A DNA stretch of 33,247 bases from Burkholderiales bacterium (lineage in GTDB: Bacteria; Pseudomonadota; Gammaproteobacteria; Burkholderiales; Burkholderiaceae_C), in contig JAEMQF010000165.1 of the NCBI GenBank assembly GCA_022758925.1, positions 1 to 33,247 on the forward strand, written 5' to 3'. Made by a program: the position numbers and the translations under genes. How positions within the stretch are numbered: the first letter of the stretch is position 1; the number at the start of each line of letters is the position of its first letter. Below, piece after piece: positions 6,087 to 31,606 of the stretch. Under the pieces are notes generated by a model, which was given only the letters and a program-made list of their open reading frames with translations, was not told where the DNA came from and did not search any database.

Positions 6087-6809
6087 ATGATCTTTTTGAG
6101 GAAGTCGAACGAACGGGGCTATGCCGATCATGGCTGGCTGAAGAGTTATCACAGTTTTTCGTTTGCCGACTACCACGACCCGAAGCACATGGGATTCTCC
6201 AACCTGCGCGTCATCAATGAAGACCGCATCGCCCCCGGAACGGGTTTCGGCACGCATGGCCATCGCGACATGGAGATCATCAGCTACGTGCTCAGTGGTG
6301 AACTCGCGCACCGCGACAGCATGGGCAACGGCCCGGCGGGTGCGGCACACAGCGCTGTCATCAAGCCCGGTGACGTGCAGCGCATGAGCGCGGGGCGCGG
6401 GGTGACGCACAGCGAATTCAACAACGCACCGCAGGAGACGACACACTTCCTGCAAATCTGGCTGACGCCGAACGCGATCGGCTTGACGCCGGGTTATGAG
6501 CAAAAGCACTTCCCTGCCGCCGTCAAGCGTGGCCGGCTGGCCCTGGTGGCTGCTGCCGATGCCCGCGAAGGCGCGATTCGCATCCATGCCGACGCGACTG
6601 TCTACGCGGGCCTGTTCGACGCTGCGCAAGCCGCGACCCTGCACCTCGCAGCCGACCGCTGCGCCTATGTGCATGTGGTGCGCGGCAATCTGGTCGTGAA
6701 CGGCCAGGCCGCCGCCGCGGGCGACGCCGTGATGCTTCGCGATGAAGCGGCGGTGCGGCTGGAGCAAGGCGTTGGCGCCGAAGTTCTGGTGTTCGACCTG
6801 AAGGCATGA
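6087..6809 (+). CDS. Pirin family protein (bicupin, quercetinase-like)
   Basis: Pirins are double-cupin metalloproteins; the E. coli homologue YhhW shows quercetin dioxygenase activity, but the physiological substrate is unknown. The 240-residue product has the N-terminal cupin metal site: His57 and His59 (GTHGHRD), then His108 and Glu110 (THSEF). Conserved pirin motifs include HSFSFADYHDP near residue 25 and MSAGRGV. Start at 6087 is supported by GGAGA 9 bases upstream. Its stop overlaps the start of the FMN reductase gene by 4 bases (ATGA), so the two are translationally coupled. This points to a shared redox or aromatic-compound role, which is inference. Confidence 0.94.
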   Translation: MIFLRKSNERGYADHGWLKSYHSFSFADYHDPKHMGFSNLRVINEDRIAPGTGFGTHGHRDMEIISYVLSGELAHRDSMGNGPAGAAHSAVIKPGDVQRMSAGRGVTHSEFNNAPQETTHFLQIWLTPNAIGLTPGYEQKHFPAAVKRGRLALVAAADAREGAIRIHADATVYAGLFDAAQAATLHLAADRCAYVHVVRGNLVVNGQAAAAGDAVMLRDEAAVRLEQGVGAEVLVFDLKA

Positions 6810-7417
6810 TCCAGATGCAATTGCAGACCTCGAAGCTGTTGATTCTTTCCGGCAGCTCACGCGCCGGCTCCTTCAATGGCAAGCTCGCAAGTCTGGCGCG
6901 CGGCCTCGCTCTGGGCGAGGGCGCACAGGCTTCGTTGCTGGATTTGCGCGCGCTCGACTTGCCCGTCTATGACGCCGAGATCGAGGCGTCGGCGATGCCG
7001 GCCGGTGCGCTCACGTTTCGCGACGCATTGGCGCGACACGACGCCGTGATCGTGACTTGCCCCGAGTACAACGGTTTCCCGACGCCGCTGTTGATCAATG
7101 CCTTCGACTGGGTTTCGCGCGTGACGGCGGGCAATGGCCTGCCCGCGGGCCTTGCGGCACTGGCCGGCAAACCGGCAGGCGTGATGAGCGCCTCTCCTGG
7201 CCCATTCGGGGGCCTGCGCAGTCTGATGTTCGCGCGCCAGTTCCTGCACAACGTGCTGGGCATGCTCGTTGTTCCCGAACAGTTCGCGCTGAGCCAGGCG
7301 GCTCAGGCGTTCGACAGCGAGGGCCAGTTGCGCGAACCGAAGCACGTTCAGGCGGCGCAGCGCGTGGTGCGCAGCGTGCTTCGGCTGAGCACGGCGCTGC
7401 GCACGGTGTCGCCGTAG
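6806..7417 (+). CDS. NAD(P)H-dependent FMN reductase family protein
   Basis: This flavodoxin-like NAD(P)H:FMN/quinone reductase has 203 residues. The phosphate-binding loop of the flavin site is GSSRAGSFNGKLA (about 16-28), and the second family motif is CPEYNGFPTPLLINAFDW. These are typical of the ChrR/YieF/NADPH-dependent FMN reductase group. The start overlaps the pirin stop. An inner ATG three codons later would be equally possible. No membrane segment or signal peptide is seen. Substrate cannot be told from sequence; reduction of quinones, flavins or other electrophiles is known in the family. Confidence 0.92.
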   Translation: MIQMQLQTSKLLILSGSSRAGSFNGKLASLARGLALGEGAQASLLDLRALDLPVYDAEIEASAMPAGALTFRDALARHDAVIVTCPEYNGFPTPLLINAFDWVSRVTAGNGLPAGLAALAGKPAGVMSASPGPFGGLRSLMFARQFLHNVLGMLVVPEQFALSQAAQAFDSEGQLREPKHVQAAQRVVRSVLRLSTALRTVSP

Positions 7418-7453
7418 CGACGATCCGGCAGCGCGCCGGTGTTTCGAGTCGAA

Positions 7454-7621
7454 CTTGAGAGTACCCCCAGGCCGACGCGTCGCGTCGGCCGCCCCCCGTG
7501 GGGGTTGAGGCAACTTCGGGCGGCCGTGCGTTTCCTCAAGAGTACCCCCAGGCCGACGCGTCGCGTCGGCCGCCCCCCGTGGGGGTTGAGGCAACTTCGG
7601 GCGGCCGTGCGTTTCCTCAAG
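7454..7621. repeat. Two perfect tandem copies of an 81-bp palindromic repeat
   Basis: Copies at 7458-7538 and 7539-7619 are identical over 81 bases. Each copy holds an inverted repeat GGCCGACG-5 bases-CGTCGGCC followed by CCCCCC-GT-GGGGG; the outer ACCCCC can also pair with the last GGGGGT to enclose the first hairpin. The array starts with CTTGAG and ends with CTCAAG, a short terminal inverted repeat. The period is 27 codons, so both strands stay open through it, but no protein is supported. It fills the gap between the FMN reductase and DUF599 genes. It looks like a dispersed extragenic palindromic element; other genomic copies cannot be checked here. Confidence 0.9.
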
Positions 7622-7627
7622 AGCCGC

Positions 7628-7633
7628 TACAGT
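7628..7633 (+). promoter_or_regulatory. Candidate -10 element of the DUF599 gene
   Basis: TACAGT is followed by 7 bases and the ATG at 7641. The region where a -35 would lie is inside the second 81-bp repeat copy. There is no Shine-Dalgarno sequence, so a leaderless transcript is possible. Confidence 0.35.
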
Positions 7634-7640
7634 TCGGTGC

Positions 7641-8360
7641 ATGCAAACCTTCTTCAAGATGATCACGGTGCTTCCCGGCTGGGACTGGGCGGCACTGCTG
7701 GTTTTCTTCAGCGGTTGGATCGGTTATGCGCACTTCGCCAAGCGCCGTGCGACCACCCGGCCTTCGGTACTGGCAAGCACGAACCGGGTGCGGCGCGAGT
7801 GGATGTTGCAGTCGACAAGGCGCGAAGCGCGCGTGATCGACGCGGTCGTGATGCAAAACCTGTCCAGCAGCCCCTCGTTTTTCGCTTCGACCACGATCCT
7901 CATCATCGGTGGCCTGCTTGCCGCATTGAGCACCACGGATCGAGCGAGCGAACTGGTGCGTGAACTGCCGTTTACGGCACAAACCTCGTTGCTCGTGTTC
8001 GACCTCAAATTGCTGCTGCTGCTGGCGATCTTCGTCTACGGCTTCTTCCGCTTCACCTGGTCGATGCGCCAATACACATTCGGCGCGATGCTCGTCGCCA
8101 CCGCGCCCGAGATGGCGCAGTTCGACGCGCAGGGTGCCGCGTCCGAAATGCGGCGCAACGCCTTCGCCGACCGTGCCGGGCGCGTCATCTCACTCGCCGC
8201 GGAATCGTTCAATGACGGCCTGCGCGCCTACTACTTCGCGTTCGCCGCGATCGGCTGGTTCTCATCGCCGGTGGCGTTTGTCGTGGCCACTGCCGGTGTG
8301 ATCGTCGTGCTCTATCGGCGCGAATTCCGCTCGGAGGTCTTGGCCGTCCTCAACTCTTGA
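7641..8360 (+). CDS. DUF599 family membrane protein
   Basis: This is a 239-residue integral membrane protein of unknown function that resembles the DUF599 family. Hydrophobic segments lie near residues 14-32, 75-94, 113-135 and 190-222; the last is long enough for two passes. Between the third and fourth is a soluble stretch with Arg and Glu (SEMRRNAFADRAGRVISLA) that looks conserved. The C-terminus YRREFRSEVLAVL is also family-like. The start is uncertain: ATG 7641 has a -10-like box 7 bases before it, while ATG 7659 is an alternative. It converges with the hydrolase gene, leaving only 6 bases between the stops. Confidence 0.8.
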   Translation: MQTFFKMITVLPGWDWAALLVFFSGWIGYAHFAKRRATTRPSVLASTNRVRREWMLQSTRREARVIDAVVMQNLSSSPSFFASTTILIIGGLLAALSTTDRASELVRELPFTAQTSLLVFDLKLLLLLAIFVYGFFRFTWSMRQYTFGAMLVATAPEMAQFDAQGAASEMRRNAFADRAGRVISLAAESFNDGLRAYYFAFAAIGWFSSPVAFVVATAGVIVVLYRREFRSEVLAVLNS

Positions 8361-29053: not shown

Positions 29054-29746
29054 ATGAAGAAACTGAACCACGTGGCATCGCTGTTTGCTTCCGCTGCGCT
29101 CGCTGCTTCGGTGTCTGGCGCATTTGCGCAGTCATCGGGTACCGACCAGTGGACCAACTCATCGGGCCTTGTCTGGAAAACCGGCAGCGGCGATAACTGC
29201 TGGCGTGACGCCAACTGGACGCCGGCAACGGCCAATCAAGCGTGCGATGGCGCTTTGAAGCCGGCAGCGCCGCCGCCCCCTCCGCCGCCGCCCCCACCGC
29301 CGCCACCGCCGCCGCCGCCGCCGCCGGCCATGGTGCAAGCTCCGCCGCCGCCGCCGCCACCCCCGCCGCCGCCGCCCGCGCCGGTGAGCGAGAAGGTCAG
29401 TTTCGCGGCTGACGCCTTCTACGACACCGGCAAGGCCGTGCTCAAGCCAGAAGGCATGGCCAAGCTCGACGACCTGATCTCCAAGATGCAGGGCATCAAC
29501 CTCGAAGTCATCATTGCGGTCGGGCACACCGACTCCGATGGCGACGATGCTTTGAACCAGAAGTTGTCGGTGGCCCGTGCCGAGTCTGTCAAGGCCTACA
29601 TGACGAGCAAGGGCGTCGAGCAGAACCGCATCTACACCGAAGGCAAGGGTGAAAAGCAGCCGGTGGCCGACAACAAGACCAAGGAAGGCAAGCAGAAGAA
29701 CCGCCGCGTCGAAATTGAAGTGGTCGGAACACGCACCCGCAAGTAA
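29054..29746 (+). CDS. ompA: OmpA family outer membrane protein with polyproline linker
   Basis: This 230-residue exported protein tethers the outer membrane to peptidoglycan. Residues 1-25 are a clear signal peptide ending AFA-QSS. A short Trp-rich segment (about 26-68; [18 protein letters not shown]) follows in place of a large beta-barrel. Then come 19 consecutive Pro codons, a short AMVQA break, 12 more Pro, and the C-terminal OmpA domain (about 115-225) with [22 protein letters not shown] and NRRVEIEV. The GAGAGGAGA ribosome binding site is 3 bases from the ATG. Strong terminator downstream. The linker is encoded by CCG-rich simple repeats that could change length. Confidence 0.94.
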
Positions 29747-31235: not shown

Positions 31236-31606
31236 GGGGCTGACCTGGCTTCGACGTGGGTTCGGACTTGGAACAGGGCATGCCGAGCACCAGTACGCTC
31301 GTAAATCCACTGGAAACAAAGTAACTGCGAACGACTCTACGTACGCTCTCGCCGCTTAAAACCGGTGAGCTTCGCAACAGTTGGCCGATGGGCTGGGCTT
31401 GAGGGGCAACCTGAAGGCTGCGAAGTCATACACATCAGCTCGTCCTGAGCCGGGTCACTCGGCACAGGGTTAAATCAAGTGACTCGTCGAATGGGTAGCG
31501 TGCTGCTGCGCGACCCAGGAGGCTAAAAACAAATCAGCCAGCTAAGCGTGTAGATCTGCCTGACGAAGGCTTGCGGACGGGGGTTCGATTCCCCCCAGCT
31601 CCACCA
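31236..31606 (+). ncRNA. ssrA: Transfer-messenger RNA (tmRNA)
   Basis: tmRNA rescues stalled ribosomes and tags the incomplete protein for proteolysis. The 5' end GGGGCUGAC...GGCUUCGACGUGG and the 3' end GGGGGUUCGAUUCCCCCCAGCUCCACCA form the tRNA-like half; GGGGCU pairs with AGCUCC next to the CCA. The tag frame at 31327-31359 encodes ANDSTYALAA and ends in TAA, so the full tag is (A)ANDSTYALAA. Length of about 371 nucleotides fits one-piece tmRNA. A strong terminator follows within 8 bases. Confidence 0.97.

Follow-up and report, generated by a model that had tools for sequence, protein, structure and literature searches.

The two identical 81-bp repeats that precede a DUF599 gene in a Burkholderiales genome likely represent two copies of a mobile element of Burkholderiales, a small palindromic repeat that is non-autonomous and very probably belongs to the BRE (Beta-proteobacterial repeat element) family. 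They lie on contig JAEMQF010000165.1, of which a stretch of 33,247 nucleotides (the window) was analyzed as a whole. The element is dispersed, and it is absent from the orthologues of the window site that we examined.

The array occupies the 223-bp gap between a gene of the NADPH-dependent FMN reductase family (6806-7417; PF03358) and the DUF599 gene (7641-8360; PF04654), and both genes and all features of the array are given here on the + strand. TRF reports 7458-7623 with a period of 81, 2.0 copies and a 100% match. Unit 1 (7458-7538), which consists of AGAG and 77 bp, and unit 2 (7539-7619) are identical, so that the two perfect tandem copies described in the first-pass annotation are confirmed. 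A terminal AGAG (7620-7623) closes the array and repeats, in direct orientation, the AGAG found at 7458-7461 and 7539-7542. The nested inverted repeats ascribed to the unit are also there, although the palindromes are triple rather than double. Hairpin A (7470-7490 in unit 1, 7551-7571 in unit 2) has a perfect 9-bp stem and corresponds to helix 1 of the alignment, which covaries. Hairpin B, CCCCCCGTGGGGG (7492-7504 and 7573-7585), pairs CCCCC with GGGGG and forms helix 2, which varies little. Hairpin C (7507-7537 and 7588-7618, with unit 1 arms at 7507-7514 and 7530-7537) is the covarying helix 3; its stem has one mismatch, common to both window units and to the copy C101:9423. The sequences CTTGAG (7454-7459) and CTCAAG (7616-7621), previously proposed to bound the array, are both present at its start and end, but the boundary that repeats is NGAG, one copy of which is shared between the units.

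The two units are 100% alike, whereas the next nearest copy is 96% alike. Both carry a TA (7462-7463 and 7543-7544) that is absent from all other arrays among the 146 read, together with a second uncommon change, GAGGCAAC, that is found in one other copy, C101:9423. Because the units are identical, including a change that is otherwise unseen, the window pair points to a recent local duplication, as had been supposed from the perfect identity.

We searched for further copies in the host genome, which comprises 4.62 Mb in 422 contigs. The unit as a DNA query gave 53 matches at E ≤ 10, and R1, a covariance model derived from 15 copies, gave 120 matches at E ≤ 1, including the two window units, of which 79 reach E ≤ 1e-4. 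A 39-base core was present at 15 places with three or fewer mismatches, and the reversed pattern at none. With 118 further matches and a core that has no reversed counterpart, the window repeat is not a product of chance, and the genome-wide search for the unit, as the first-pass annotation had suggested, reveals more than a local duplication. A tandem duplication of purely local origin, or an artefact of assembly, without any mobile element involved, which the identity of the copies and the nearness of many arrays to contig ends might suggest, is therefore refuted as a full explanation by these matches, by period-81 tandems in other genera and by an empty site in Burkholderia (below), and we give it next to no weight.

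The best 109 of the 120 matches (E ≤ 0.033) were taken for closer study, and 108 of them were read with their flanks; 86 of these 108 copies are units of 81, 78 or 75 bp. The 109 matches group into 87 arrays, 21 of which hold several matches, in every case on one strand. By reading, 14 of the 21 are tandem units, some of mixed subtypes, and seven are single 156-bp long forms (C101:9423, C167, C251, C259, C276, C375:3 and C78) with an extra 75 bp module after hairpin A. The arrays of mixed subtypes point to insertion beside an older copy. Diverged subfamilies with TGAC or GGTG ends were seen at C128:12472 and C178:8390; these are tandem as well, and the loop of hairpin C is kept. A contig end is no more than 200 bp away from 18 of the 87 arrays in this draft assembly, which indicates that the element disturbs assembly and that the copy number at the window site may be wrong.

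To describe the fold, we aligned 86 copies (85 distinct), with GC contents of 0.63-0.80: 25 from 24 of 80 host stretches, one from Burkholderia arboris and 60 that were the top-scoring among the family-genome matches listed, from 20 other genomes. Cells at paired positions are paired in 96.4% of cases. Changes on both sides of a pair account for 220 cells, compared to a mean of 58 in shuffled and 8-67 in slid controls, in an alignment that was fitted to the model and so favours pairing. This covariation is carried by hairpins A and C, which are maintained by compensatory changes, while hairpin B is nearly invariant. By reading, hairpin C has a loop (CTTGGGGCGGCCCGGCG or a close variant) that is far less variable than the stem. 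The ends of the element are mostly NGAG on both sides, and the copies read with flanks have no terminal inverted repeats, the left end being CGCCCC and the right end TTCCTTG(A/T) or similar. An integron attC site was considered and provisionally set aside on the core motif of such sites.

The element extends through the host's family and beyond it. Among 150 genomes of the family, 116 have a match at E ≤ 0.01 and 82 at E ≤ 1e-4, host included. Only the host and one more member of the same family match at E ≤ 1e-4 among 185 genomes of the class, family names being listed for part of the other 183. At the level of the order, at least 31 of 399 genomes match at E ≤ 1e-3 with 11 candidates scored per genome, and 22 of them are outside the family. 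Most of these 22 matches, when read, contain CCCCCCGAGGGGG and the core of hairpin C, and the locus L401 shows the architecture of the element. A plain DNA search found the unit in four of 30 genomes, host included, and tandem copies with a period of 81 also occur in other genera.

One locus in Burkholderia provides an empty site. B. arboris carries one unit of 77 bp, from TGAG to AGAG, whose start coincides with the TGA stop of an ORF upstream, and the same locus is empty in B. cenocepacia (TGAGCCCCCGACC, with two extra C compared to the B. arboris right flank) and in B. stagnalis (TGAACACGACC). GAG flanks the B. arboris copy on both sides, and a single GAG is present in the empty site of B. 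cenocepacia. We infer that the difference arose by insertion in B. arboris and not by two precise losses. The B. arboris replicon has a second, weaker match (E 0.0012). Plasmid searches with two subtypes returned one good match, that of B. arboris; a partial match (E 0.05) on pAKD16 and JN106175 is an element copy by reading, and the remaining plasmid matches are chance-like. The pAKD16 copy begins at the TAA stop of sdpA.

The flanks of other copies were compared in 120 left-right pairs from the 146 arrays, after leaving out host arrays with E > 1e-3 and arrays with CCCC no more than eight bases past the right end, a filter that also removed some agreeing 4-mer pairs. Left and right 4-mers are equal in 26 of the 120 pairs, compared to 15.9 expected from permutations (p = 0.0008, subfamilies pooled). 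Where the left 3-mer is other than GAG, the right side agrees in 2 of 45 cases. The flanks support a target duplication in part, and one of three bases appears likely.

At the window site, we compared the best 80 of 140 DUF599 relatives in named genomes, headed by Rhizobacter, Piscinibacter and Methylibium. R1 has seven matches at E ≤ 1 in the 80 loci (six at E ≤ 0.1), none of them in the 300 bp that precede the DUF599 start. Reading of 26 sequences upstream of DUF599 revealed no unit; those of L232 and L260 include a short GC-rich segment similar to part of a unit. Pelomonas sp. CA6 (L291, 2304-2636) has three weak R1 matches at a spacing of about 122 bp, 365-700 bp upstream of DUF599.

The upstream sequences may also bear on how the DUF599 gene is expressed. 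A TA[CAG]A[GT]T box lies 5-8 bases before the start in 22 of the 26 loci read, in forms like TACAGT, TAAAGT or TACATT, and in 11 of those 22 it is preceded by TG one base before. The window has TACAGT at 7628-7633, seven bases 5' of the ATG and lacking that TG. The second unit ends eight bases before this -10-like box, so the array does stand directly upstream of it, as previously noted. A consensus scan of 7400-7660 found no sigma-70 promoter pair, -35 box or intrinsic terminator. The position of the box, 5-8 bases before the start, suggests that DUF599 has a leaderless start. Any effect of the array on DUF599 transcription would be incidental, and the array itself would be nothing unusual, a mobile repeat duplicated in place that lies upstream of a promoter-like box. 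Elsewhere in the window, a CGC-rich triplet array (29268-29376) lies in an ORF that encodes a long run of prolines and is OmpA-like by reading.

We then asked where copies reside relative to genes, using 133 arrays (73 from the host at E ≤ 1e-3 and 60 from other genomes). Sixteen lie within a single open gene that reads through them in frame, and none causes a frameshift; three have a stop in the array, 21 separate differing same-strand frames and 14 separate opposite strands. In 63 a flank is unclear, and in 16 a contig end is too near. The codon-usage caller behind these assignments was correct for 128 of 129 tiles, the tiles being from the model's own training genes. The first-pass annotation had remarked that a period of 81 bp is 27 codons and keeps frames open. 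This property matters at the 16 arrays within genes but is irrelevant at the intergenic window site. In the TGAG-type family consensus, four of the six frames have no stops, one has an internal stop and one has TGA at the ends (by reading).

Seventeen proteins with an insert (the 16 and C15) were scanned, and Pfam domains were found in 15. In nine of the 17, one domain spans the insert or is split by it: adh_short, Ham1p_like, Abhydrolase_1, AMP-binding (L128), CT_A_B, CoA_transf_3, Aminotran_1_2, MacB_PCD and DPPIV_N. PDB homologues are near-contiguous at the insert point in the three cases aligned, namely RdgB, HemN and an aminotransferase; the SDR protein as a query gave no PDB match at E ≤ 1e-30. 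The SDR insert adjoins what we take to be the NAG core motif of that family and may inactivate the protein. A Rieske-like gene at C222:72 is broken by a stop within the element. Both strands and several frames are used in genes, which argues that the inserted peptide is not the conserved thing. All 16 arrays within genes have a length that is a multiple of three, compared to 92 of the other 117, a weak difference (p = 0.04). We rejected it as proof of selection, since R1 favours a length of 85 and the copies share descent.

Stop codons are a second recurrent context. Enough left flank was available for 125 arrays, and to the left of 44 of them a gene in sense orientation is clear. Twenty-eight of the 44 start with TGA, and in 23 of these 28 that TGA is the gene's own in-phase stop (about one-third expected, p = 1.5e-7). 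All three arrays with a stop inside belong to these 23. Selection against harm together with a GAG target is enough to produce this excess, and active targeting is not required.

Taken together, we propose that an enzyme encoded elsewhere would recognize the folded single strand, as DNA or RNA, and insert it at GAG. Copies would survive between genes, or at a TGA stop followed by G, where the stop is rebuilt. Within genes, the survivors would be those that combine an inserted length that is a multiple of three with an open frame. A GAG at each end could permit head-to-tail stacking, either because a further unit inserts at one end or through slippage in place or unequal exchange, and the window pair probably formed through local duplication.

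The strong covariation could instead mean that the RNA itself is useful, as a small RNA, an mRNA stabilizer or a terminator-like element, and many copies do lie right behind stop codons. Moreover, two transcripts, bprJ1 and bprJ2 (80 and about 200 nt), cover one copy of the published BRE repeat, according to the part of that report available to us (PMC3110155). A functional or regulatory RNA nevertheless seems improbable, because the single orthologous site tested shows no conservation of position, and copies are found inside genes as well as in either orientation. The window contains no terminator-like T run. Rfam searches of seven loci gave one chance-level miRNA match (E 0.83), those of 10 other loci gave none, and that of the window gave only tmRNA. 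The tmRNA gene (RF00023, 186 bits) is at 31236-31606.

For the mobile element that we prefer, the question is what moves it. No mobilizing enzyme was found in the 10 stretches examined (half-matches and the Y1 contig), and no autonomous long copy with the same ends was seen there. Small GC-rich palindromes that are both dispersed and clustered recall REP/BIME elements moved by RAYT (HUH/Y1) transposases, the system to which the first-pass annotation had looked. Indeed, the host genome has one Y1_Tnp gene, and Y1_Tnp occurs in 112 of the 150 family genomes. However, 32 loci that cover 31 Y1_Tnp genes and up to 1.5 kb on either side contain no element match at E ≤ 1, and the single host gene has no adjoining copy. 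Strong matches (E ≤ 1e-8) are present in 34 family genomes, of which 20 have Y1_Tnp and 14 have no detected match to it; some of the 14 are drafts, and two (G061 and G072) are 100% complete. Because of these 14 genomes and the 32 loci without the element, RAYT is probably not the mover. Orientation also shows no replication-strand bias (29 vs 33 in three genomes, with the terminus assumed to be opposite dnaA), and the unit of 75-81 bp with three hairpins differs from REP sequences of 20-40 bp tagged with GTAG/CGTC, as these are described in the text available to us (PMC3733652). A REP/RAYT origin thus appears very unlikely, more so than a functional RNA. The sole host Y1_Tnp gene (L039, G000:C356) is adjoined by a different short repeat, approximately TTTAAGACCTGACCCCTATGACC, in several copies.

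Beyond the identity of the element, we tentatively suggest, as a possibility short of an even chance, that BRE-type repeats are a distinct mobility class. Each such repeat would be a short nucleic acid of three hairpins whose CTTGGGGCGGCCCGGCG-like loop stays constant. The enzyme that inserts it at GAG would be conserved, encoded by the host or by a mobile element, and distinct from both RAYT and terminal-repeat transposases. Insertions would survive chiefly at TGA stops and in frame in protein loops, and core enzymes throughout Burkholderiales would repeatedly have gained peptide loops in this way.

Several known repeats invite comparison. Elements derived from IS200/IS605 have subterminal hairpins and a fixed short target. 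The element described here differs in that no such transposase lies beside it at the loci tested, there is no strand bias, and a short repeat is present on both sides. REP, REPIN and BIME sequences are likewise dispersed palindromes that form clusters, but the present element has no GTAG/CGTC tag, a larger unit, NGAG ends, head-to-tail arrays and no RAYT link that we could see. RU-1/ERIC, RU-2/YPAL, RU-3 and MITEs are described in the accessible text as small non-autonomous repeats with open frames that are sometimes intragenic (PMC2759123). Most enterobacterial repeats of the RU/MITE kind have terminal inverted repeats and TA ends, as far as the source available to us goes (PMC2229807), and our element has neither. 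YPAL/RU-2 is nearer in design, with internal inverted repeats and no TA ends in the text consulted. RPE elements, given as 105-146 bp with terminal inverted repeats in the available part of their description (PMC2229807), are palindromic and lie in frame inside conserved protein genes, and by sequence reading the same is true here. The present element differs from RPE in its 75-81 bp, its three hairpins, the lack of terminal inverted repeats and its free-living hosts.

The closest likeness is to BRE. The part of the report by Hot et al. (2011) available to us gives BRE as 75-91 bp and GC-rich (63.7-78.9% in Bordetella), scattered, with up to eight copies in tandem, variable in number between strains and suspected to be mobile (PMC3110155). 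Most BRE copies are intergenic and some are wholly within coding sequence, orientation is not tied to replication, and the hosts listed there are Bordetella, Azoarcus and other Betaproteobacteria, particularly the Comamonadaceae (PMC3110155). Our units of 75, 78 and 81 bp with GC contents of 0.63-0.80 fall within that size and are likewise GC-rich. Tandem arrays occur here too (14 in the host genome), 16 of the 133 arrays are in coding sequence, and orientation is even (29 vs 33). The matches are in the family and order of the host, which may accord with the range of BRE. Up to 29 BRE copies per genome are reported there, compared to 79 at E ≤ 1e-4 here, under a different threshold. The element is therefore probably a member of BRE, as judged from the accessible published description. 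In the part available, that description offers neither a hairpin model nor a target site, and it contains no empty site, stop-codon signature or analysis of in-frame copies (PMC3110155). If the two repeats are the same, BRE gains a covariation-backed fold, one empty site and a stop-codon signature. The in-frame insertions reported here fall in conserved enzyme families of free-living bacteria, and together with the fold, the empty site and the stop-codon signature they make the mover, and the tolerance of surface loops to RPE-like insertions, testable.
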